Positions 25,674 through 37,237 of a stretch of 64,000 nucleotides of DNA are shown piece by piece. The position numbers and the translations under genes are program-made. Below the pieces are notes generated by a model. The model did not search any database. It was not told where the DNA came from and saw only the letters and a program-made list of their open reading frames with translations. Every line of letters begins with the position of its first letter. Within the stretch, counting starts at the first letter, position 1. Source of the DNA: Pseudofrankia coriaricola (lineage in GTDB: Bacteria > Actinomycetota > Actinomycetes > Frankiales > Frankiaceae); NCBI RefSeq assembly GCF_001854805.1, contig NZ_MBLO01000259.1, positions 124,001 through 188,000 of the forward strand. Direction: 5' to 3'.

Positions 25674-26465
25674 TCAGCGGTCGCGAAGGCGGTAACGGCT
25701 CCAGGGCAGAGGGTCGCTGGGACCGCGCCTCGGCCCAGGCACGGCCGGCGGCTCCGCCGAGGCCGCGGCGGGCCGGGCCGGGGCGGCCGCCGGCTCGGCG
25801 CCGGTGGCGCGGACGCCGCCGGCGGATGCCTCGCTGAGGCCAGAAGCTCCGGCCGCGGTGCCGCCGGCGGCGGAAGGACGGCCGGTCTGGTAGCCGAGGG
25901 CGATCTCCGCGCGGGCCAGCCAGTCCAGGTCGAGAGCGGGGGTGACCCGCGCGAGCAGGGTGTCGAGGCGCTCGACGAGCGCGTCCGCCTCGGGGCCGCG
26001 GCGCTGGCGGCGGGCGGCCAGCGCCCAGCGGCTGGCCGCGTCCTCCAGATCGCTCAGCGGACTGGTGTCGTGCAGGCCGCGCCGGACGATGCCGGCGAGC
26101 TCGCCGGAGAGCCGGCTGGAGCCGGACCGCTCGGCCAGGGCGACCAGGTCGGAGGCGACGGCCAGCGCCCGCCCCCACGCGAACAGGCCTGCATGCCGGC
26201 GGGGAAGCGCGGCCAGCTGGCTGACCCAGCTGGTCGTCACGCCGAGCGCGCGGGCCAGTTCGCCGAGGCCTCGGCGGGAGCCGTCCTCCGGGAGCAGCTG
26301 GTGGACCGTCATCGCCTGCAGTCCCGCCCGGTTGTCGGCCAGCTCGCGCAGCGCCCGCCAACGGACCACCGGCGGCGCCGCGGCCCACAGCCGCGTCATC
26401 GCGGTCAGCAGCTCGTCCACCTGCTGATCGACCTGATCATCATGTCGGCTCATCCGCGGCAGCAC
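25674..26465 (-). CDS. Helix-turn-helix protein of unknown function
   Basis: A 263-residue protein I do not recognise. Residues 65-95 (LGELARALGVTTSWVSQLAAL) look like a helix-turn-helix, the remainder to about 195 is helical and Arg/Ala/Leu-rich, and the last 65 residues are low-complexity Ala/Pro. The start may be the GTG at 26465 (AGGTGAGGG upstream) or the ATG at 26453. An imperfect 12-bp dyad lies 13 bp upstream of the first start. It ends up immediately outside the left end of the Tn7-like remnant. A regulator is the best guess. Confidence 0.6.
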   Translation of the reverse strand: MLPRMSRHDDQVDQQVDELLTAMTRLWAAAPPVVRWRALRELADNRAGLQAMTVHQLLPEDGSRRGLGELARALGVTTSWVSQLAALPRRHAGLFAWGRALAVASDLVALAERSGSSRLSGELAGIVRRGLHDTSPLSDLEDAASRWALAARRQRRGPEADALVERLDTLLARVTPALDLDWLARAEIALGYQTGRPSAAGGTAAGASGLSEASAGGVRATGAEPAAAPARPAAASAEPPAVPGPRRGPSDPLPWSRYRLRDR

Positions 26466-26511: not shown

Positions 26512-26552
26512 ACGCTAACACACTGCAACTTGATCACTACTCGCCTGCGCCT

Positions 26553-26576
26553 TGTAGGTTCCCCCGTTGATCTTCC
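26553..26576 (+). repeat. Left terminal inverted repeat of the Tn7-like element (end A)
   Basis: A 24-bp sequence beginning TGTAGGTTCCCCCGTTGATC, exactly complementary to 35397-35420. The TGT start is normal for Tn7-like ends. It is preceded by CCTGCGCCT (26544-26552), which also follows the other end. Confidence 0.8.
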
Positions 26577-26589
26577 ACTTCCCAGATCG

Positions 26590-26617
26590 CTTTTCCACTC
26601 GCCGGCAATTGGAAGTG
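26590..26617. other. Hairpin inside transposon end A
   Basis: CTTTTCCA and TGGAAGTG enclose the 12-nt loop CTCGCCGGCAAT. The five inner pairs are Watson-Crick and the sixth is G-T. The loop and the preceding TTCCCAG are shared with the end-like sequence at 32123-32190, but the stem bases differ. Confidence 0.6.
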
Positions 26618-26764
26618 ATCTAGGTAGGCGTCCGGGTCCTAGCGCGGACCGCCTGGTCCGAGGGCCGCGACGGGTCAGAGGGCACACGAGATCACAGTTG
26701 CACCCTAGATGGGCACTTTCTGTCGCTTTACGGTTGCCGTGAGGAGCGTGGGGGGTGTTGCGGG

Positions 26765-27499
26765 ATGGCGCGGTCGGCGGCTGCGTTGGGGTCCGCCCGA
26801 CTCAGGGTTCGCAGAGCTGACGGCGTTGTCGAGGTGGAGCTCGACCGGCCTGTGCACGTCGAGTTCGACGGGGTGCTGCCATGGCGGACATTCCGTTGGC
26901 ACCGGGGCCAGGCGCACTACTCGGGCTTGTACTGGTCGGCGGTGACCTGCGGTCACGTGGGCTACGAGTCGCGGCTGGAGCTGGCCTGGCTGCTGTTGGC
27001 AGATCGGGATCGCTTGCTACGGCAGGTAGCGTCGCAGCCGTTTCAGATGGTCGCGCGGGTCGACGGCGAGGTGCGCCGTCATGTGCCGGACTTCGTGGCG
27101 GTGCGCGCTGATGGGCTGGTGACGGTGGTGGACGTCAAGCCGCGGCGGCGCCTGGCGGACGAGAAGGTGGCATTCACCTTCGGGTGGGCTGGTCGGGTCA
27201 CGGCGGCACAAGGTTGGTCGTTCGAGGTGTTCAGCGAGCCCGACCCGGTGGTGCTGGCGAACGTCCGGTTCCTGGCGGGCTACCGGCGGAGCACGCAGTT
27301 CGACCAGGGGTTGCTGGACGCGGTGGTCACCGCAGTCGGCTCGCCCGTGTCGTTCGCCGAGGCGGTGCGGTCGGCGGGCGCGGTGGTGGGGAGCGGTCCC
27401 GCTGGTCGTGCCTATGTGCTCGCTGCGCTGTGGTCGGGGCGCCTCTGCGCGGATCTTCGGTTGCCGTTGGCGTCCGCGACGGTGGTGACGGCGGCGTGA
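26765..27499 (+). CDS. tnsA: TnsA-like transposon endonuclease
   Basis: A 244-residue protein with a restriction-endonuclease-like core. GYESRLELAWLL supplies Glu68, HVPDFVAV supplies Asp109, and VVDVKPRR supplies Asp123 and Lys125, matching the E...D...(D/Q)xK active site of TnsA. TnsA cuts the 5' ends of the transposon so that it leaves by cut-and-paste with TnsB. N-terminally a beta-rich segment of about 55 residues precedes the catalytic core, as in actinobacterial relatives. Unlike its neighbours this gene looks intact. The ATG is 188 bp inside the left end, and the stop overlaps the tnsB start (GTGA). Confidence 0.85.
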   Translation: MARSAAALGSARLRVRRADGVVEVELDRPVHVEFDGVLPWRTFRWHRGQAHYSGLYWSAVTCGHVGYESRLELAWLLLADRDRLLRQVASQPFQMVARVDGEVRRHVPDFVAVRADGLVTVVDVKPRRRLADEKVAFTFGWAGRVTAAQGWSFEVFSEPDPVVLANVRFLAGYRRSTQFDQGLLDAVVTAVGSPVSFAEAVRSAGAVVGSGPAGRAYVLAALWSGRLCADLRLPLASATVVTAA

Positions 27500-28470
27500 G
27501 TTCGGCGCGGGCGAGTGTCGGGCTTGGCAGCAAGGTTGTCCGGGACGGCGAGCTGTGTGAGGTCATCGAGCTGCAGGGCGACGCGGTCGTTGTCGAGGAC
27601 CGCAAGGGCCAGGTCTCGCGGCTTCGGCTTGCCGACCTGCTGCGGCCGGGCGGCCCGGCTGTCCCGCGCCTGGTGGGAGCGGCGGCGCCTGGCAGCGAGG
27701 AGCCGCCCCAGGTGTTGTTGGACCGGGTGGGCGAGGAGGCGGCCGCGCGGGCACGAGAACGGGCTAATCATGTCCGTGAGGTGCTCACGGGCTACCGGTC
27801 GGGATCCGCGGAGCTCGCGGCGCCTGGAGAGCCGCGCGGCGCGTTCGCGCCGAGCGTCCCGCTGATGAGGCGGTACGAGGCCAAGGCCGAGGAGCTTGGG
27901 GTGACGGCCCGGACGGTTCGCGGCTGGGTGATCGCTTACCGGGCGGGCGGGGAGGCGGGGCTGGTCGATGCCGCGGCTGGGCGCCGCCGTCCGGTGCTGG
28001 AACAGGTCGACACCCGGTGGGTGGACGCCTGTCGGGCCGTGCTCGATGACCAGGTCGACGACTCGAACGTGACGAAGTCGCTGACGTTGCGGCGGGTGGC
28101 GGCGCGGCTGGAACGGGAGTTCGGCGCCGGGGTCGTCCCGGCGCCCCGGGGCGGCGCGGCCTACCGGGCGCTCAACGAGATCGCCCGGGGTCGGGGAAGC
28201 TTCGGGGCGAGCGCGAAGGCACGCCGTTCGATCGCGAACCGGCCGGCGGTCTCCTACGGCCGGCTGCGGGCGTCCCGGCCGGGTGAGTACGTGCTCCTCG
28301 ACACCACCCGCCTCGACGTGTTCGCGATGGAGCCGGTGACGCTGCGCTGGGTCCAGGTGGAGCTGACGATCGCAATGGATCTCTATACTCGCTGCGTCAC
28401 GGGGATGCGGTGCAGCCCGGTGTCGACGAAGAGCGTGGATGTCGCGTCGGTGCTGTTCGAGATGATCCAA
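27496..28470 (+). pseudogene. tnsB: Truncated TnsB-like DDE transposase
   Basis: About 325 residues of an actinobacterial TnsB. A small beta domain (1-75) comes first, then winged helices with TARTVRGWVIAYRAGGEAGLVD (about 130-150), then the start of the catalytic core: YVLLDTTRLDVFAM with the first catalytic Asp and AMDLYTRCVTGM. The sequence breaks off after SVLFEMIQP (about 28468), where tnsC-like sequence begins in another frame. The second Asp and the Glu of the DDE triad are therefore missing. The GTG start overlaps the tnsA stop. A deletion joining tnsB to tnsC is the simplest explanation. Confidence 0.85.
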
Positions 28471-29075
28471 CCAAGCGCTTGTCGCGGGCCGCGCTCGACG
28501 CGCTGTCCCCGGACGCGAAGGCGGAGCACGACCGGGCCAGGCGGGTCTGGCACGCGAACATCGGCCCGCTGCGCACCCCGCAGATGGCCGCGCTGCACGA
28601 CGACCTGTGGGACATCGTCGAGACGAACCAGCAGGACGGGGACAAGGCCAAGGGCGCTGCCGCGATCGACGGCTACCCGGGGCTGGGCAAGACGACCGCC
28701 ACGCTGGTCTTCGCCCGCGAGTTCCACCGCCGCCAGATCACCGAGGAAGGACGGTCCACCCCCGGCGGGCACGAGCACCTGCCGGTCTGCTGGATCGGCC
28801 TCGGCGCGAACACCACCATCAAGGGCCTCAACCAGACGATCCTCGACTTCGCCCGCACCACCGGCCACATCGGCTCCCTGATGACCCTGATCAGCCGCGG
28901 CGCCGGCCGGGCGATCCGCCACGGCCAGGAACGGCTCACCCGCGACCTGCTCGACCGGGTGAAGGCCGACGAAGGAGCCGAGCAGTCCCGCGCCCCGCTG
29001 CAGGCAGCGCTCGACGCCGGCCGGCTGACCCCGCATCACCGCGCCCTACGCACCACCGCGTCCGCCGACGCATAA
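28470..29075 (+). pseudogene. tnsC: Internally deleted TnsC-like AAA+ ATPase
   Basis: Starts abruptly with KRLSRAALDALSPDAKAEHD, a typical near-N-terminal TnsC segment, and keeps Walker A (GYPGLGKTT). After IKGLNQTILDFARTTGH it jumps to GSLMTLISRGAGRAIRHG, which resembles the C-terminal end of the family. Walker B, the sensor motifs and about half the normal length are missing, yet the frame is open to a TAA at 29075. TnsC normally links the target selector TniQ to TnsA/TnsB; this copy should be inactive. tniQ begins 2 nt later. Confidence 0.8.
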
Positions 29076-29077
29076 CG

Positions 29078-29702
29078 ATGCCGGCCCGCACGCTGCCACT
29101 GCGGCTCGACCCGCTGCCCGACGAGGCACTCGGCTCCTGGCTGGAGACCTACGCGCACCGGCTGCAGGCCACCCTCGGGGACCTCGCCATCGCGCTCGGG
29201 CTACCGACGACCGACCGAGAGCACCCCTCACGGATGCTTGCACATGCGCCGGACTGGACTGTCAGCCTGCACACCAGCGAAGCAGCATCCATCGCCGCTG
29301 CCTGCGGGATCTCCCCCGCAGCCCTCCACAGCCTGACCCTGACCCGTTTCGACGGCCGTGCGGTGCATGTCGACACCGAACGACGCCGTGTCCGCTACCG
29401 GCTCTGGGCCCGGACCGAAGGCTCACGCTTCTGCCCCAGCTGCCTACACGAGAGCGACGGACGGTGGCCACTGAACTGGCGCCTGAGCTGGTCCTTTGCC
29501 TGCCCAATCCACCAATGCCTGCTCGTCGACACCTGCCCTCGCTGCGACCGCCCGGCCCGCACGGCCGGCGTCGCGCTCGGCTTCGTTCCCCACCCAGGAC
29601 ACTGCGCGCGCAGCATCGGCGGCGCCCGAGGCCGGGAAGCGGCACGCTGCGGCGCCGACCTCACCGCCGCCCCCGCCCTAGCCCTGTCCTTCGCACGTGC
29701 GT
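29078..29702 (+). pseudogene. tniQ: TniQ target-selection protein, 5' part
   Basis: About 208 residues of TniQ. The N-terminal domain is RLDPLPDEALGSWLETYAHRL, and a zinc-binding block begins FCPSCL, with CPIHQCLL and TCPRC completing the cysteine/histidine set (about residues 117-160). TniQ/TnsD proteins choose the insertion site. The ATG follows the tnsC stop by 2 nt. The coding sequence runs into an IS1634-family element and resumes on its far side, so this is a clean insertional split. Confidence 0.85.
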
Positions 29703-31430
29703 GTGATGGGCCAGCTACGTGATCTTTTGATCGTTCTGTGTCGGGCCTGCCGCGCCGCGGAGTGGTGGGCCTGGCACGGTTCCTGGCTGTGACGGCCGCG
29801 GCGGACTACGGGCCGCCGAGCGTCGAGAAGATGCTCGGCGCGCTGCCGGTCATCCGTGACTTCCTGCGCCGGCTCGATGTCGCCGGCACCGTCGACCGGC
29901 TCTGCCCGGTCCGCGACATCGCCCGGCTCACCCATGGCCAGGTCATCGAGGTCCTGATCGCCAACCGGCTGACCTGCCCGACCGCGATGGTCCGCGTCGC
30001 CGACTGGGCGGCGGCCTGGGCGGTCGAGGAGGTCTTCGACGTCCCGGCGGACGCGCTGGGCGACGACCGGATCGCCCGGGCCCTCGACGCGCTCGCGGAG
30101 CAGGCCGACCAGGTCGTCGGCTCGATCGGCGCGGCCGCGGTCGCCGGCTTCGGCCTGGATGTGTCCCAGGTGCACTGGGACATGACGTCGATCTCCCTGT
30201 ACGGCGCCTACCCCGAGACGGATCCCGACTACGCCACGCCGCGGTACGGCCATCCCAAGGACCGTCGGCCCGACCTCAAACAGATCCAGACCGGGCTCGG
30301 GGTCCTCGCCGACGGCGGGGTCCCGCTGGTCGCGAGGGCCTACGACGGTGGCGCGGCCGAGGTCTGTCAGGTCGTCGGTGCGCTGCGCGCCCTGCGGACG
30401 GCCGCCGGCCCGCGCCCGTTCCTGCTGGTCGGCGACACGAAGCTGGTCTCCTACACCAACCTGTCCGCGCTCGTCGCCACCGACGGCGCACGGTTCATCG
30501 CCCCGGCGCCCAGGAACGTCGTGCCCGCGACCGTGCTCGCCGCCCTCGACGTGACCACCGCGGCCCCGGTCGACTACGTCGCCGTCCGCGACCGGGAGAA
30601 GTTCGCCCACCAGCGGGCCTTCTACCGGGCCTGTGAGGGCCGGACCACGGTGCGCGGGCCGCGGAAGAAGGATCCGCCGCTGGTCGTGCGCACCGTCCAC
30701 GTCTGGTCGTCGGCCAGAGCCCAGGCCGCCGTGTCCGCCCGCCGGCTCAAGCTGGCCAGGGCCACCGACGAGCTCGACCGGCTCGTGCGCACCGCCGGCA
30801 CCCGCTACCACCCCGACGAGCAGGCGGTACGGGCCCGTGCCGAGCAGGTCTGCCGGTCCCGCCGGGTCACCGGCCTGGTCCACTACGAGATCGACGCCGA
30901 TGAGGCCAGTGGGAAGACCACCTTCACCTGGGCGTTCGACGAGACGGCCCTGGCCGCCGAGGCAGCCAGCGACGGCTGGTACGCGCTGCTGACGAACCTG
31001 ACCGTCGCCGAGGCGGACGCGGCCGAGGTGCTGCGCCGCTACAAGGGGCAGGAGAAGGTCGAGCGCCGCTACAGCGACTACAAGGGGCCGCTCGCCGTCG
31101 CGCCGCTGTTCCTGCGGTCCAACCAGCGGATCGACGGGCTGATCCACGTGATCTGCCTGGCGTTGCTGGTCTTCAGCCTGATCGAACGTGAGGTCCGCCG
31201 GGCGATCGCTCCGGCCGAGAAGCTGCCGGGTCTCTACGCCGGCCGGCCCGCCAGGCCCACCGGCCGGCTCGTCTTCGAAGCCCTCGCCGCGCTGCGCCTG
31301 GTTCCCGCCATCGGCGGCCAGCCCGCCTACATCCCCTGGCCGGGGACGTTGCAACGCCACCTGCTCGACCTCCTCGGAGTCGACCCCACCCAGCCTCCAT
31401 GATCGAAAAACGTGATCACCGGGGCGGGTA
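29703..31430 (+). mobile_element. IS1634-family insertion sequence inside tniQ
   Basis: About 1.7 kb interrupting tniQ. It contains one full transposase gene. GTGATC and a nearby TTTTnGATC-like stretch occur in opposite orientation near both ends (about 29718-29732 and 31404-31420), consistent with imperfect terminal repeats. I could not fix the exact ends or a target duplication, so the limits are approximate. Confidence 0.75.
29738..31402 (+). CDS. IS1634-family transposase
   Basis: A 554-residue DDE transposase. Catalytic candidates lie in VHWDMTSISLYGAYP (first Asp), FLLVGDTKLVSYTNL (second Asp) and the C-terminal block VERRYSDYKGPLAVAPLFL (Glu), which is the characteristic IS1634 signature. 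Length and motifs are complete, so the element may still be active. The GTG start lies about 35 bp inside the left end of the element and the stop about 28 bp from its right end, the tight packing normal for insertion sequences. Confidence 0.92.
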   Translation: MSGLPRRGVVGLARFLAVTAAADYGPPSVEKMLGALPVIRDFLRRLDVAGTVDRLCPVRDIARLTHGQVIEVLIANRLTCPTAMVRVADWAAAWAVEEVFDVPADALGDDRIARALDALAEQADQVVGSIGAAAVAGFGLDVSQVHWDMTSISLYGAYPETDPDYATPRYGHPKDRRPDLKQIQTGLGVLADGGVPLVARAYDGGAAEVCQVVGALRALRTAAGPRPFLLVGDTKLVSYTNLSALVATDGARFIAPAPRNVVPATVLAALDVTTAAPVDYVAVRDREKFAHQRAFYRACEGRTTVRGPRKKDPPLVVRTVHVWSSARAQAAVSARRLKLARATDELDRLVRTAGTRYHPDEQAVRARAEQVCRSRRVTGLVHYEIDADEASGKTTFTWAFDETALAAEAASDGWYALLTNLTVAEADAAEVLRRYKGQEKVERRYSDYKGPLAVAPLFLRSNQRIDGLIHVICLALLVFSLIEREVRRAIAPAEKLPGLYAGRPARPTGRLVFEALAALRLVPAIGGQPAYIPWPGTLQRHLLDLLGVDPTQPP

Positions 31431-31445
31431 GGGGCACCAGAATCC

Positions 31446-31955
31446 GATGTGCGAAACACAGGCCTAGCGTTGGACGACGGCCACCCCGTGCTCGAAGCCC
31501 AGCAGATTCTCTGGCACGTGCTCGACCGCCCCACCGCGAACTTTGGGATCTACAAGGCCGTCCCGGAGCCCGTCACGACCATGCTCACCGACCTCGCCTT
31601 CCTCGGCCGCAGAGTGCTCCACGACGCGAGCATCGACGACCTGGCCAGCCGGCTGCCCGCCGACGTGCTCGCCCAGTACGTCCGCGACCGTGACGGCAGG
31701 TCACCCCGTCAGCCCATTCACCCACCCGACCGGGCGTCCCTCGTCGCCGTCACCGTCACCGCCGCTCTGCACGCCCTGCGGATCGCCGACACACGCACAG
31801 CCGGCCACGACCTGCGCTGGCTGTTCAAAGACCCGCAATCACCACCAGCGACGGAGTTGAGCATCCCGCTGAAAAGAGCGCTACGCCCCCCAGAACCCCC
31901 TCGCCGTCGGGGCCTCCGCTGGCCGCCCCGGTGGAGGGATCAACCAGCCGTCTAA
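31446..31955 (+). pseudogene. tniQ: TniQ target-selection protein, 3' part
   Basis: Continues TniQ after the insertion sequence: GLALDDGHPVLEAQQILWHVLD, then VTTMLTDLAFLGRRVLHDAS and a long helical region, ending in a Pro/Arg-rich tail. The frame is open from the element to the stop at 31955. Joined to the 5' part it would give a protein of about 380 residues. A GTG at 31449 could in principle start translation of this piece alone, but no ribosome site supports that. Confidence 0.8.
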
Positions 31956-32008
31956 CAGCCGCGTCGCCGTCCTCAGCGCGACCGCCGCGGACCGAGAGGG
32001 ACACCCCT

Positions 32009-32064
32009 GCGTCGGGCCAGGGGCCCGCGTCCACGGGACCTAACCATCCTGCCGCGCCTCGGGA
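32009..32064. repeat. 56-bp repeat, left copy
   Basis: Begins GCGTCGGGCCAG and continues GGGCCCGCGTCCACGGGACC. A copy of about 85 percent identity lies in the same orientation at 36098-36153. The pair brackets the transposon cargo and the NTF2-like gene. Confidence 0.8.
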
Positions 32065-32122
32065 CGCGACGTCCCGTTCATAGCAGGCCCGACCTCTCGC
32101 GAGCCCTGGGCGATCAGAAGGT

Positions 32123-32190
32123 GTATATAGGTTCCCGGCTCTCGCCGCCGTTTCCCAGCTTGCTCCGCCACTCGACCGGCATTGGCGGAG
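32123..32190 (+). repeat. Diverged transposon-end-like sequence (end B) with hairpin
   Basis: TATAGGTTCCC, then TTTCCCAG, then CTCCGCCA-(12 nt)-TGGCGGAG. Order and spacing match end A (26553-26617) but the sequence has diverged. The stem (32163-32170 with 32183-32190) is perfect over 8 bp and its loop CTCGACCGGCAT resembles that of end A. It lies 168 bp after tniQ, in the same orientation as end A. Confidence 0.6.
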
Positions 32191-32297
32191 GGGGTCTTGA
32201 CCGGCTCTGCGAAGCCGCCGCGGCGCCTGCCCGCCGGGCCCGCCGGGTGGCCGCGCCGCCTTCAGCGGGCGGAGGACCCCGGCGAGCCCGGTTCAGG

Positions 32298-33686
32298 TCA
32301 CGCGTGCGGGCAGCTCAGCATTTCCATCCCCAGCAGGTTGAGGGAACCGCACCAAGACCTTCGCTGGAGTTTCCAGCCGTCAGCCGTACGGATCGCCCCG
32401 ACGGTGATGGGGAATCGGACGACGCCGTCCGGCCCGCGCTGGCCAGCCATCACCGCGACCGTCGGGTCGATGAACGTCATCGTCACCCGGGCCATGACGA
32501 AGTCGGATCCGCTCTGGCTGAGGCTGTCGACCGTGACCTCCATGGTGTCGCTCAACTGTGGGAAGTGGGCGCGCAGGTTGGCATGGATGGCTGTCAGCGC
32601 CGGGCCGTCTTCCACGGCCGCGGCCCAGCGCTCGTCGGGCACGCCGTGGGCGAAGGCGTCGTGGAGGACCGACTCCACCGCCGCGGCGATCCCGGCGTCC
32701 TCGAGGGGCCGCAGGGACTCGGTCGGTAGCGGAGCGATGCTCGGCATCGGGCCGAGGACCAGCCCGGCGCCGATCTGCCGCAGCACCTCGAGGTCCACCG
32801 GAGCGGCACCGTCGGCCTCGACGCCGAGCACGGCGCCGCTGGCCGTGGGCCAGGTGAGCAGGCCCCCGTAGCGGTGGTCCGGTTCCGGGCCCTGGGGATG
32901 TGCGGCGTCGTGCCCGAGGGCGAGGTCGTTGCGGACGAAGGCGGCGTCCCGGTCGCCCACCGTCACCGCCGACACCTCGGTGACGCCGGCGGCCTCCCCG
33001 GCGGAGCCGTCACTGTCAAAGAAGCCCCCCAGCTCCTCCTGGATCCGAGGGATGGTCGCCCCGATCGTGTGGTCGTCCGGCGGATAGGCCGCGATCACCC
33101 AGACGGTGGACAGCCCGGCCGTCGCAGTCGTCGACGCCGTGGACGGCGCGACGAACCTGCTGACGAACGCGTTGGCGCCGAGCATGTGCACGTAGCTGGC
33201 CAGGAGCGGTGCTTCGGCCTCGAACGGGATCACGTCGGTCAGGTCCGCGTCGTGCGTCATCGCCGCCGGCAGCCAGGTCGTGGTCACGCCGCCGAAGGCG
33301 TACGGAACGTCCCGCGACGCGGGCCCTGCCGCGGCCACGGCGGACCCCGGGTCGTTCCCGCCGGCACGCAGGCTCACCGGGATGCCGACTCCCGCCACGA
33401 TCACCAGCACGAGCGCGGCGACCGCGGCGACGCGAGCGCGTGACCGATGACGGCGGGCCTGTGCGCACACAAGGTCGGGGAACGCGGTGCCGACACCGCG
33501 CCGCGGCCTCCCGGCGCCCAGGGCGCGCAGGTGCGCCACCAGGTCCTGGTCAGCGCCGTCCACGATGTCGCGCGTGGGCTGCGTCCCCGCCGCAGCCCCG
33601 ACCCGCGCGGTGAAATTGCCCCTTTGGACCGGTCCACCTGGGTCGGTGCGCCCGTTTGCTCCTGTACTCACAGCATCTCCCCTCAC
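32298..33686 (-). CDS. Membrane-anchored protein paired with the ECF sigma factor
   Basis: A 462-residue protein. A basic/hydrophilic N-terminal region of about 90 residues precedes one membrane helix (about 94-113: VAAVAALVLVIVAGVGIPVS), leaving a large C-terminal domain outside. I do not recognise that domain. The position right behind a SigE-subfamily sigma gene, with a GTGA overlap, is that of an anti-sigma factor or co-regulated sensor, but no anti-sigma zinc motif is visible. The GTG at 33671 (AGGGGAG upstream) is an alternative start. It lies inside the Tn7-like boundaries and may be cargo. Confidence 0.65.
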   Translation of the reverse strand: MRGDAVSTGANGRTDPGGPVQRGNFTARVGAAAGTQPTRDIVDGADQDLVAHLRALGAGRPRRGVGTAFPDLVCAQARRHRSRARVAAVAALVLVIVAGVGIPVSLRAGGNDPGSAVAAAGPASRDVPYAFGGVTTTWLPAAMTHDADLTDVIPFEAEAPLLASYVHMLGANAFVSRFVAPSTASTTATAGLSTVWVIAAYPPDDHTIGATIPRIQEELGGFFDSDGSAGEAAGVTEVSAVTVGDRDAAFVRNDLALGHDAAHPQGPEPDHRYGGLLTWPTASGAVLGVEADGAAPVDLEVLRQIGAGLVLGPMPSIAPLPTESLRPLEDAGIAAAVESVLHDAFAHGVPDERWAAAVEDGPALTAIHANLRAHFPQLSDTMEVTVDSLSQSGSDFVMARVTMTFIDPTVAVMAGQRGPDGVVRFPITVGAIRTADGWKLQRRSWCGSLNLLGMEMLSCPHA

Positions 33687-34333
33687 CGGGTGGGTCGCGT
33701 CGAACGCGGAGCGGAAGCCCCTGGGGACGAAGCGGTGCCGCCATCCCCTGTCTCGTTGGTCAGGACGTCGAGGCCTCCCCCGCCGCGGTGGCGTCCTCGT
33801 GGGGCGTGGACGGCGCCGAGCGCCGCCAGGTGCTCGCTGTCGCGCAGCCGGGCAAGGCCCCGCGAGGCCTGGCTGCGCACCGAACCGACGGAGCAGCCGA
33901 GCGCGGCGGCGACCTCCGCCTCGGGCAGATCATCGACGTAGCGCAACACCAGCACGGCCCGCTGCCGAGGCGGCAGGGACAGCAGCGCGCGGACCAGGCC
34001 GTCGCGCAGGGACAACCGGTCAGCATGGTCGACGCCCACGGCGGCGACATCGACAGTCCACTCGCCATCGACGACCAGCGGCACCTCCGCGACCCGCGAC
34101 CGCAGCCACCGCCACCGGTTCGTCGCGGCATTGACCAACGCCCGGCGTACATACGCCTCCGGCCGGCCCTCGGCTATCCGCGGCCACTGCCGGTAGGTGC
34201 GCTCGAACGCCCCCTGCAGCAAGTCCTCCCCCGCACCCCAGTCCCCGCCGACGAGCAGAACCGCACTCAGCAGCAACCGGTCGGCAGCCCCGGCCACGAA
34301 CGTCTTAAAGGCCAGCTCCTCATCAGCACGCAC
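33683..34333 (-). CDS. SigE-subfamily ECF RNA polymerase sigma factor
   Basis: About 216 residues. Region 2 runs from FKTFVAGAADRLLLSAVLL through GGDWGAGEDLLQGAFERTY to RPEAYVRRALVNAATNRW, and region 4 is LSLPPRQRAVLVLRYVDDLPE through GCSVGSVRSQASRGLARLR. These are hallmarks of the actinobacterial SigE-type (ECF41/42-like small) family that directs stress transcription. The open frame extends far upstream, but the GTG at 34333, 5 nt after GGAGG, gives a normal start. The C-terminal 40 residues are a Gly/Ser-rich tail. It is coupled to the membrane-anchored partner by 4-nt overlap. Confidence 0.85.
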   Translation of the reverse strand: MRADEELAFKTFVAGAADRLLLSAVLLVGGDWGAGEDLLQGAFERTYRQWPRIAEGRPEAYVRRALVNAATNRWRWLRSRVAEVPLVVDGEWTVDVAAVGVDHADRLSLRDGLVRALLSLPPRQRAVLVLRYVDDLPEAEVAAALGCSVGSVRSQASRGLARLRDSEHLAALGAVHAPRGRHRGGGGLDVLTNETGDGGTASSPGASAPRSTRPTR

Positions 34334-34413
34334 CCTCGCCTCCACTGTGTCCAGCTCGCCCGTGTCTGGCCCGTCCCAGTACAAACACGCCCGACCCCAG
34401 CCACGATGAGTAC

Positions 34414-35067
34414 TCAGCCGAAACCCACGCTGAAAAGACGTCGCCGACGCGGGCCGCCGCGATTGACGCGACGCCACCCGTCCATCCCGCCGAGGAGTCG
34501 GTCTTGGAAATCCAGGGTCCGGACGACGGACGAGCCGCTGTCGGCGCAGGCCCGAACCGAATACGTCACCCGACTTGCCCCCAATTGGGATCTGTCCGAC
34601 TGACGCACCCTGTCCCGTCCCCGCCAACCTGGTCTGGCCACGAGGCACTGACCAGGCAAGAGACCAGATGCGGTGGACAACGCCGCTGCTCGTCCCAGTG
34701 CGGCCGCGAGCTCGGTGAGTACCGAGGTCCGGAAGGTCTCCAGGTCGCGGTCGCCGAGCAGGAACCGGACGTCGAGGTCGGTGCAGGCGACGAGCAGGTG
34801 GCGTTCGGCCTTCTTACGGCCTGGCTGGGGTAGCCAGGGGCCGACGCGCAGCGGGTCTCGTCCATCACCACGACCATCGCCATCCTTCGACGCGGGCATC
34901 GACGAGTTCGAGCCGTTCCGCGACAGCAGGCGCTCCACCCGGCCGAGCCGGTCCGCCAACACCGCGTTCGCCGCCGTCAACTCCGTGATCCTGGCGTCCC
35001 GCGCCGCGTTGTCCTCCGTCAGCCGGGCGATCCGCCCTGCCTGCAGCCACACCAGCACGACCAGCAC
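34414..35067 (-). pseudogene. IS66-family transposase fragment
   Basis: The first 70 residues (34860-35067) match the N-terminus of IS66 transposases: a coiled coil ARLTEDNAARDARITELTAA followed by RLLSRNGSNSSMPASKDGD, the variant of the RNSSNSSKPPS hallmark. After about residue 75 the frame is not transposase-like, so only the N-terminal fragment survives. It is an insertion-sequence remnant within the right arm of the Tn7-like element. Confidence 0.75.
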
Positions 35068-35396
35068 GTCACGCGCCAGACCTCACCAACCCCGACACCA
35101 GCCGCTACGCGACCATAACCCCACAGACCGCCACCAAAACTGACAAATCAGCACTCTCCGCAAGGGCGCTGCATGTACCTGGTCAGGCATCAGCTGATCG
35201 ACCTTCCGGCCGGATCGGACCAGCTTCGGAGGGGACGACCGGTCGACCTGGCCAGCTTCGACTGGGACGAGACCAGGGCGCCGGGACGGGACACACCCGG
35301 CGACTCCCCGCGCAGAACTGCCATCGAAACCCGGTAAGTCAGCACTACGCCTAATGACACCCCGCCTGGGAAACCCCTGGCAGCACGCCACCGATT
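35068..35396. other. Non-coding right arm of the Tn7-like remnant
   Basis: About 330 bp between the IS66 fragment and the right end. No gene is recognisable on either strand. TTTCCCAGGCGGGGTGTC on the minus strand near 35355-35372 resembles the sequence beside end C. Confidence 0.4.
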
Positions 35397-35450
35397 GGAA
35401 GATCAACGGGGGAACCTACACCTGCGCCTGCAGGTTCCCTCGTTGATCGT
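35397..35450. repeat. Right transposon end (D) and facing end-like copy (C), 8 bp apart
   Basis: 35397-35420 is the exact inverted copy of end A and finishes in ACA. After CCTGCGCC a second copy in opposite orientation starts TGCAGGTTCCCTCGTTGATC (35429-35448). Together they form a long near-perfect inverted repeat with an 8-nt loop. Both carry TTTCCC(A)GGCGGG-like sequence further out. CCTGCGCCT (35421-35429) repeats the 9 bp before end A. Confidence 0.75.
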
Positions 35451-35619
35451 CGTTTTCCCGGCGGGTTGTCAGACGGGTAGACACCGGTACTTTCGCACCA
35501 TGAAGGTGCTCCTTCGACTGGAACGGATCGGGCTCTCGACGAGCCCGTCCTCCCAGCCCAGGAGCGCTTTCCTATTTCAGACACACCCACCAGACGGTCA
35601 TGGCGTGAAAGCTTGAGGC

Positions 35620-36018
35620 CTAGCTTCCGGGCGTCAGCGACTCGTGATAGTGCACCCCGTGCCATCCGGTGGCGTCGCGGCGGAACACCACGGACACCCG
35701 GCCGGCAACCACGTGCAATGGCCCGCTGACGAAGTGGGCTCGAAAGCGGAACCCAAAATGGACGGCGACAACATCGTCACTCAAGCGCTGGTGACGGACA
35801 GCGAATACGTCCATGATCTCGACGTCGCGAAACAACCGCACGACGCGGGCGTAGTACGCGTCAAGGTCGACCTTGGAGGTGATCGGATCCGCCAGCTCGG
35901 CCGGGCTGTACACGATGTCCTGGTCGGCCCACAGGGAACCCAACAACCCCGCGTCGAGCCGTAGGAAGCCATCTTGGTAGCGGCTGATGAGGTCATCGAT
36001 CTCGTTCACGCACGGCAC
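35620..36018 (-). CDS. NTF2-like / SnoaL-fold protein
   Basis: A 132-residue single-domain protein with the NTF2-like pattern: N-terminal helices IDDLISRYQDGFLRLDAGLLGSLW, then the beta sheet with VVAVHFGFRFRAHFVSGPLHVVAGRVSVVFRRDATGW in sequence order, and HYHESL at the end. Members act as isomerases, cyclases, dehydratases or binding proteins, and sequence alone does not distinguish them. The start is a GTG (36018) or the GTG three codons later. It lies just outside the right transposon end. Confidence 0.75.
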   Translation of the reverse strand: MPCVNEIDDLISRYQDGFLRLDAGLLGSLWADQDIVYSPAELADPITSKVDLDAYYARVVRLFRDVEIMDVFAVRHQRLSDDVVAVHFGFRFRAHFVSGPLHVVAGRVSVVFRRDATGWHGVHYHESLTPGS

Positions 36019-36097: not shown

Positions 36098-36153
36098 GCG
36101 TCGGGCCAGGGCCCGCGTCCACGGGGACCTGGCCCTCCTTCCGCGCCTTGGGA
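36098..36153. repeat. 56-bp repeat, right copy
   Basis: Direct partner of 32009-32064; begins GCGTCGGGCCAGGGCCCGCG. It lies in the 220-bp gap between the NTF2-like and ROK genes, the rest of which shows nothing else. Confidence 0.8.
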
Positions 36154-36238
36154 GGCGGCAGCAGCGCATGGTGCTGCTGTCTGGCGTCAGGAGTTGTGCG
36201 TCTGCGGTAGGCGGCGACGCCGAGGTCAGCCGCCGAGG

Positions 36239-37237
36239 TCAGCGGACGCTGGGCAGGGTCGGGGACGGGTAGCCGGCGGGGGGCTCGGCCGCCCAGGCGG
36301 CGGCGCCGACGGCGCCGGCGAAGCCGTCGATGGCGGTGACGACCCGCGGGTTCTCCACGAGAACGGTGTAGCGGGACATGATGTCGTCGAAGTGCGGGCG
36401 GAAGGCCGACAGGCCGGCCGACACCCCGCCACCGAACACGATGACCTCGGGCGCCAGCGCGTTCGCGAGGCAGGCCAACGCGATGCCGAGGGCCCGCCCG
36501 GCGCGGGCGACCAGGCGTGCGCAGGCCGGATCGACGGGGGCGAGCTGGACCACGTGCCCGGGCGTGACCAGCTCGGGCCGGCCCTCGACGGCCGCGGCGA
36601 GCACCGGCGCGGAGCCGGTCCGGACGAGGTCTCCGCCCATCTCGGCCAGTGCCCGGCCACCCGCGATGGTCTCCAGGCAGCCGATCGCGCCACAGCCGCA
36701 CTTGCGGCCGTCATCGGGCTCGATCGGCATGTGCCCGATCTCGCCACCGCGGCGCTGGTAGCCGAGCCGCAGCTGGCCGTCGGAGGCGATCGCGCCGCCG
36801 ATCCCGGTCCCGAGCGTCACGAAGATCGCGTCGGCCGCGGTGGCGGCGGCGCCGTGCCGCAGCTGGCCATAGGCGAACGCCCGCGCGTCGTTGGCGAGGT
36901 TGACCGGCCGCCCGATGGCGTTCGCGAGCTCCGGGCCGATCGCCCGGGCGGGCCAGTCGCCCGGGATGTTCGGGACGACGAGCAGCTTGCCGGCGACCGG
37001 GTCCAGCGCGCCCGCCACCGCGATGCCGATCGCCCGCGCCGCCGGGACCTGGGCGGCGAGGCCGGCGAGCGCGCACAGCACGTCGTCGACGCCGGTCCGC
37101 GGCGTGGGCACCTGGCCCTTGTCGATCACCGTGCCGTCGACCAGGGTCACCCACTTGATCGACGTGCCGCCGAGGTCGAGGCCAAGAACCGGATCCGTGC
37201 CCGCGCTGCCCGCGCGTGGTACGCCGTCCTGAGTCAC
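36239..37237 (-). CDS. ROK-family sugar kinase (glucokinase-like)
   Basis: A 332-residue ROK kinase. The ATP phosphate loop is GLDLGGTSIKWV (about residues 18-29), catalytic Asp is in NLANDARAFAYG, and the family's zinc motif is complete: GHMPIEP, then CGCGAIGCLE. FGGGVSAGL completes the adenosine site. It phosphorylates a hexose such as glucose or N-acetylhexosamine with ATP. No DNA-binding domain is attached, so it is a kinase and not a repressor. GTG start; transcribed alone. Confidence 0.88.
   Translation of the reverse strand: MTQDGVPRAGSAGTDPVLGLDLGGTSIKWVTLVDGTVIDKGQVPTPRTGVDDVLCALAGLAAQVPAARAIGIAVAGALDPVAGKLLVVPNIPGDWPARAIGPELANAIGRPVNLANDARAFAYGQLRHGAAATAADAIFVTLGTGIGGAIASDGQLRLGYQRRGGEIGHMPIEPDDGRKCGCGAIGCLETIAGGRALAEMGGDLVRTGSAPVLAAAVEGRPELVTPGHVVQLAPVDPACARLVARAGRALGIALACLANALAPEVIVFGGGVSAGLSAFRPHFDDIMSRYTVLVENPRVVTAIDGFAGAVGAAAWAAEPPAGYPSPTLPSVR

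Follow-up and report, generated by a model that had tools for sequence, protein, structure and literature searches.

Among Tn7-like transposons, a clade that is dominated by Actinobacteria and lacks experimental characterisation has been distinguished (PMC8649781), and the elements considered here probably belong to it. The end upstream of the tns genes is by convention the right end (PMC11406308). We refer to this tnsA-side end, of about 80 bp, as the A-end, and to the opposite, 109-bp far end, conventionally the left, as the D-end. Both kinds of end occur in a 64,000-nucleotide stretch of Pseudofrankia coriaricola (contig NZ_MBLO01000259.1, positions 124,001 to 188,000; hereafter the window), in which a first-pass annotation had proposed one decayed Tn7-like transposon at 26553-35420. 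When the window is placed beside the rest of its 11.2-Mb genome (G000, 280 contigs) and a set of 35 genomes of the family that includes it, eight of the 35 being of the genus, the region probably comprises three or more Tn7-like mobile units lying side by side rather than a single broken transposon. An arrangement of this kind suggests that a shared machinery mobilized the genes of the region singly or in pairs. Genomes compared are labeled G, contigs C (those of G000 when no genome is prefixed), and loci extracted for comparison L.

The row in the window and its insertion site

We consider it likely that the row reads, head to tail, as a unit opening at 26553 whose tnsABC-tniQ genes are ruined and whose far end is lost, a sigma-factor unit that opens at 32126, closes with the D-end at 35420, and may have been moved in trans, and a remnant opening at 35429 (Table 1). 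The A-end profile matches at all three opening positions, in the same direction each time. These three ends were in the training set of the profile; the inner one at 32126 is also matched, independently of the profile, by the A-end of a related unit in G001 (expectation value, E, 2.3e-14). Only 8 bases separate the D-end terminus at 35420 from the A-end at 35429. The perfect TGT...ACA inverted ends reported earlier are real and extend to 25 nt rather than 24 (26553-26577 and 35396-35420, 100% complementary). The 24-base form is present at nine places in the genome at up to three mismatches, two of them being the window pair, and a reversed control gave none.

The Tn7-like remnant that follows the first end is equally real. 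TnsA, TnsB, TnsC, and TniQ are all present in the canonical order that had been read from the sequence alone, with damage to tnsB, tnsC, and tniQ. TnsA is assigned to NCBIfam NF033179 (TnsA_like_Actin, E 1.2e-67; the Pfam PF08722 score of 24.2 bits is under the cutoff of 26.5), and comparison with three relatives finds the YESRLELA, VPDF, and VDVK stretches, which we take to hold the catalytic residues, in place. TnsB aligns to residues 34-361 of a 733-amino-acid (aa) relative, stops soon after the DTTRLDVFAMEP block, and is without the later VVDHGK region and all C-terminal parts, in line with the description of a gene cut after its first catalytic Asp. In TnsC, Walker A (GYPGLGKTT) is kept and about 145 residues are gone, among them the VVDDVHF/IIDDVHF stretch taken as Walker B; after the gap the same frame continues at 53-61% identity to three relatives. 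The intact motifs of tnsA and the loss of Walker B, both noticed previously, are thereby borne out. TniQ (PF06527, E 8.5e-24) is broken off beside an IS1634 transposase (NF033559, E 8.8e-76), as expected from the proposal that an insertion sequence (IS) splits the gene, but the second half could not be recognized: the open reading frame (ORF) behind the IS at 31449-31955 belongs to no family and shows no significant match to any of the TniQ proteins used for comparison, and it was dropped as a candidate tniQ tail. Probably an autonomous unit inserted from 26553 brought in tnsABC-tniQ; later its far end disappeared, half of tnsB and the Walker B region of tnsC were deleted, and tniQ ceased to be intact.

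Table 1. Features of the row and its flanks in the window
Feature	Position	Strand	Basis
Left flanking chromosomal gene, 263 aa, without Pfam family; adjoins the ROK kinase gene in relatives	25674..26465	-	
CCTGCGCCT, 9 bp, flush with the first end; second copy at 35421-35429	26544..26552	+	
End A1, tnsA-side; words CTTCCA/TTTCCA/TGGAAG at offsets 19, 39, 57	26553..26632	+	
tnsA, motifs intact	26765..27499	+	Pfam/NCBIfam and alignment to relatives
tnsB, N-terminal portion, ends after first catalytic Asp block	27499..28491	+	Alignment to relatives
tnsC, Walker A present, internal block including Walker B deleted	28440..29075	+	Alignment to relatives
tniQ, N-terminal portion	29078..29722	+	PF06527
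IS1634-family transposase	29738..31402	+	NCBIfam
ORF considered as a possible tniQ tail; similarity searched, none found	31449..31955	+	
End A2, words CCGCCG/CCGCCA/TGGCGG; probably opens a separate sigma unit	32126..32205	+	Profile and G001-end search
462-aa protein encoded next to the sigma factor, putative anti-sigma solely from its position; without Pfam/NCBIfam family	32298..33686	-	
SigE-family extracytoplasmic function (ECF) sigma factor, start codon uncertain	33683..34402	-	Pfam/NCBIfam
775-bp stretch; the homologous G001 unit has about 170 bp there, without alignable sequence	34534..35308	.	
D-end, 109 bp, closes the sigma unit	35312..35420	-	
End A3 of the probable third unit, 8 bp outside the D-end	35429..35508	+	
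SnoaL-like ORF after A3, weak, under Pfam cutoff	35620..36018	-	
ROK-family kinase gene, right flank	36239..37237	-	

A counterpart of the sigma unit is found in G001 (C1:3893285-3895636), where three blocks match window positions 32126-35420 in the same order: the A-end (87% over 63 bp), a body with the sigma factor and putative anti-sigma genes (74% over 1.9 kb), and the D-end (88.6% over 114 bp). Identity is 82% between the sigma factors and 53-57% between the partner proteins, the G001 partner being without about 135 C-terminal residues. Between the G001 ends, TnsA, TnsB, TnsC, and TniQ gave no match at E 0.1 or better, and the sole tns match within 20 kb, 21 residues of TnsB at E 0.013, is outside the unit. 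As the genes that flank the window row are neighbors in G001, the sigma unit occupies unrelated loci in the two genomes; it has both family ends and no transposition genes, and the orthologous G001 site is empty. The sigma pair had been assigned as cargo of the tns element. With an end of its own at 32126, and with the same unit elsewhere in G001 without recognizable tns genes, it is better explained as a separate non-autonomous unit, 32126-35420, that could have been moved in trans by Tns machinery recognizing the shared ends.

The empty site that was sought in relatives was found in G001, G002, and G004, where the flanking genes are adjacent and about 264-430 bp apart (about 264 bp in G001). 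Five relatives align with the window up to 26512-26543 and again from 36232-36238, which places all three units within one inserted stretch; the only matches in between are part of tnsA in G006 and, in G005, part of the putative anti-sigma gene. The orthologous site of G005 (about 300 bp, badly decayed) is not virgin, since it holds that piece together with an A-end remnant (profile E 1.3e-8), and a row at this site probably predates the divergence of G000 from G005. In G006 the site spans 8.6 kb and contains another A-end, the tnsA piece (81% over 264 bp), a TetR/MFS-transporter module, and a damaged D-end. G003, with the flanking genes on different contigs, and G007, in which only the kinase was found, are uninformative. 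In G000, G005, and G006, A-ends belonging to three kinds are found about 30-40 bp away from one and the same conserved AATAAACG, a placing that may reflect either a fixed attachment site next to a conserved gene or shared ancestry of the site. The site between the small gene and the ROK kinase has probably taken successive Tn7-like insertions, each unit bounded by an A-end and a D-end and the third starting at 35429.

An intergenic repeat of about 150 bp also occurs twice in the window, before the inner end (31970-32117) and before the ROK gene (36098-36157), and recurs on C9 (L009 17729-17889) and partly in G002 (L095 11367-11415), with 79-94% identity in parts. The 148-bp copy at 31970-32117 was considered as a second kind of far end and rejected, as it is without a CCTACA terminus.

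Ends and units in related genomes

With the D-end as DNA query, 12 full-length 109-bp copies were found in 7 of the 35 genomes: 4 in the window genome, 7 in five other genomes of the genus (6 of 8 genus genomes are positive), and 1 in another genus. This is a lower bound, and the profile later added a degraded copy in G003:C53, outside the 12. Conservation ends at an identical inner position in the 11 aligned copies. Directly outside 7 of the 12 D-ends, an A-end follows after 0-18 bp (window, 8; C8, 4; C9, 6; G001, 18; G003, 13 and 11; G005, 0-1), and 6 of these 7 abutting A-ends were detected by a 10-mer at up to one mismatch, for which 0.0012 are expected per D-end against a background that includes real ends. 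The D-ends without an adjoining outside A-end are those of C140, G006, G002, G034, and a second G005 copy. The one on C140 (L010 3691-4927) lies at the start of a tnsC/TniB-like gene of a different Tn7-like element, and a long reading frame begins inside it.

An inner partner A-end is present for 6 of the 12 D-ends, which defines complete units of 2.0-3.9 kb: the window sigma unit (3295 bp), its G001 counterpart (2352 bp), and units with a TIR-NB-ARC-TPR protein of 919 aa on C9 (3211 bp), ABC transporter and PadR genes in G003 (3873 bp), a ketosynthase in G005 (about 2.1 kb), and a 438-aa ORF in G034 (1969 bp). In the C9 unit (G000:C9:71297-74507; L009 11298-14508), the TIR-NB-ARC-TPR gene, which also matches NCBIfam FxSxx_TPR, is the only likely gene picked. 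Rows are seen elsewhere too, in G003, in G005, and on C9, where the TIR-NB-ARC-TPR unit is followed by TetR/MFS genes. This TetR/MFS module is 94-98% identical in five of the eight genus genomes in differing surroundings (L009 14677-17168; L093 14103-16607; L118 5912-8409; L158 7328-9745; L101 959-3273), and in three of these (C9, G005, and G006) an A-end precedes it by 0.2 to 2.1 kb; its boundaries vary among the five genomes, and we do not claim it as a sharply bounded unit.

A-ends of the CGCCA kind have the same D-end downstream at four places, with the same cargo in the window and G001 and other cargo in G003:C29 and G005:C3. G003:C53 would be a fifth such place, but the match is weaker, and the locus is degraded and adjoins an assembly gap; there (L132 1497-1752) a degraded A-end and a degraded D-end stand face to face amid G-runs, possibly as another unit junction. 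Ends at C28 (2518), G034:C492, G015:C100 (partial), and G003:C4 were outside the analysis. A degenerate D-end pattern run by exact matching over a genome collection found four stretches in genomes of two records, a count that does not measure spread because the pattern is exact and records near the window genome may be left out.

The end is not an unrelated repeat, a possibility that was rejected because A-ends precede tnsA in two remnants and A- and D-ends delimit units of defined length. One of these remnants is that of the window; the other, on C78 (L013 6585-7649), preserves tnsA as three pieces of 62-78% identity, with some duplication, behind an A-end of another kind. The first-pass annotation had held that its model would be undermined by an unrelated end repeat at loci without tns genes, or by relatives having the cargo and no transposon. 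Ends do occur at several loci without tns genes, and a relative does have the cargo without them, but the repeat is a transposon end.

Alternatives to a row of separate units

Several observations weigh against separate insertions. No far end of the tns unit was detected in 31381-32130, even at E 50 and with the real D-end found as control, so the boundary between the first and second units is unseen; the unit at 26553 has the TGT and repeated words of an A-end, and its own far end was not found unless it is the D-end at 35420. Nor is there a recognizable D-end for A3 in the rest of the window, or an inner A-end in the DNA fetched for C8, C140, G003 4509, G006, G002, and one G005 copy. The window flanks of 32126 and 35420 mismatch and thus give no target site duplication for the sigma unit (those of its G001 counterpart, CTCGTC and CTCGCC, match in 5 of 6 letters at one offset only). 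The partner protein beside the sigma factor has relatives in seven of the eight genus genomes, and of 20 such loci scanned with both end profiles, only the window and G001 copies adjoin ends (within 1.5 kb per side), which makes the pair members of an ordinary gene family captured by these units and not a hallmark of them. In G005, an A-end of the TAGCA kind lies 24 bp before the piece of the putative anti-sigma gene, and the pairing of end kind and cargo is therefore not fixed there. Finally, movement in trans cannot be watched, because the transposase search of the eight genus genomes, in which part of the first-look candidates was scored, yielded none that was intact and closer than 50%.

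Two further observations fit an insertion in one piece, namely the perfect match over 25 bp of exactly the ends at 26553 and 35420 and the 9-bp CCTGCGCCT flush with both (chance about 2e-5). Tn7 itself duplicates 5 bp of its target. For the unit at 26553 the flanks give the flush 9-bp repeat instead, and its true partner end may be lost. These features, and the word CTTCCA shared by A1 and the D-end at the same offset, could be accommodated by a composite: the sigma unit would have inserted into or next to the tns unit, the far end between them would have disappeared, and the resulting segment of 8.87 kb, bounded by A1 and the D-end of the sigma unit, would then have moved here as one element; D-ends would have to be interchangeable. 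We regard this as unlikely. The repeat is 9 bp, whereas a relative in G008 fits 5 bp, and its right copy runs into the first base of the next end at 35429, so that reuse of a single target, or recombination involving the two similar ends at 26553 and 35429, would produce it as well. Moreover, the same site in G005, although badly decayed, keeps the putative anti-sigma piece, with no A1 or tns genes recognized.

It is improbable that the abutting ends arose through recombination, for example as a tandem duplication or a deletion scar, rather than through successive transposition. Rearrangement at ends does happen, since two G005 A-ends lie 92 bp apart and two G006 ends (G006:C2:1621860-1621895; L094 17861-17896) are fused as a perfect 36-bp palindrome that has lost all the DNA once separating them, but adjacent units carry different cargo and mostly different kinds of A-end. 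The single original element at 26553-35420 with the sigma pair as ordinary cargo, despite its canonical gene order, perfect ends, and flush repeat, was given up as the leading explanation once the inner A-end at 32126 and the G001 unit had come to light, and it is now very improbable; the damaged tns remnant of that model stands, and its extent probably does not.

Variable A-ends and comparison with known systems

The A-ends differ in a short word. In 13 of the 18 A-ends looked at, a hexamer at offset 18-19 is repeated at 38-39 and inverted at 57-58, and it is of one of five kinds (CTTCCA, CCGCCA, CTAGCA, CTTCAT, and GTCRT), nearly the same within an end. Agreement is 5.2-5.3 of 6 letters within ends versus 2.3-2.6 between kinds, and in a permutation with one end per kind only the observed arrangement of 120 reaches the observed agreement; these figures are a description and not a blind test, as the words were chosen by eye and five ends, including the irregular one at 35429, were left out. 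Whatever the kind of A-end, every one of the 12 D-ends reads CTTCCA or CTTCCG at the matching offset (one base further in for G001). Adjacent A-ends are of different kind in the window row (35429 being irregular), G003, and G005, and alike in C9. It could be speculated, very tentatively, that the hexamer is an identity tag, that units with different tags stack since target immunity acts only within a tag, and that the constant D-end keeps all of them movable by one machinery. If so, Tn7-type units would behave like stackable cassettes, with rows of single genes as the product.

Intact tnsABC genes, sought in relatives, were found there, among others in G008, in which identical 6746-bp copies bounded by TGTAGG...CCTACA lie on three contig ends and represent at least two insertions by their differing right flanks. 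Their TnsA, TnsB, TnsC, and TniQ have 270, 733, 385, and 781 aa. One contig has GCTGA at the left flank and another has it at the right flank; should these be two sides of one insertion, a 5-bp duplication would fit. Within the genus, TnsB is intact and 50% identical in G004, split over two frames in G002, and interrupted by an internal stop in G006. The G004 relative begins 12 bp after the dnaB stop codon (G004:C172, L039 6377-6390), a possible attachment site. The suggestion that intact members sit elsewhere in the window genome did not hold: the broken copy is the only TnsB match, and the C78 tnsA remnant is also broken. Compared with the minimal G008 element, the window shares a 50% identical TnsB, the TGTAGG end, and the gene order, and differs in that the G008 element has no other large ORF seen between its ends, a 781-aa TniQ, and other subterminal sequence.

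Open-licence papers on Tn7-like elements with Frankia yielded PMC12231136, which is on another subject; none were found among such papers on tandem or non-autonomous Tn7-like units or on transposons in Pseudofrankia genomes. In PMC8649781, the multiple left and right ends of 2 of 18 checked elements are tentatively put down to a Tn7-like element lying internal or adjacent to an existing one. The present case is alike in having several left and right ends in one place; what is there a suggestion for 2 of 18 elements is here an adjoining A-end at 7 of 12 D-ends. The same source counts as cargo what lies within the outermost predicted ends on either side of tnsB. Should small units devoid of tns genes be stacked next to a tns unit, such counting would assign cargo to the wrong element and miss the units that have no tns genes. 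The shared 109-bp D-end offers a simple DNA handle for finding such units, for example the one with a lone TIR-NB-ARC-TPR gene, and the rows and the variable A-end are the parts that specialists would want to follow.

With Tn7-like transposons generally, the elements described here share the tnsA-B-C-tniQ order, the TGT...ACA termini, two different ends with repeated sites, and, in G008, flanks that fit a 5-bp duplication. They differ in that several copies are 2.0-3.9-kb units without tns genes, placed head to tail 0-18 bp apart, and in the combination of a variable A-end with a constant D-end. Integron cassette arrays, which have a tyrosine integrase and attC sites, likewise hold single genes in head-to-tail rows; the ends here are of Tn7 type and beside tnsA.

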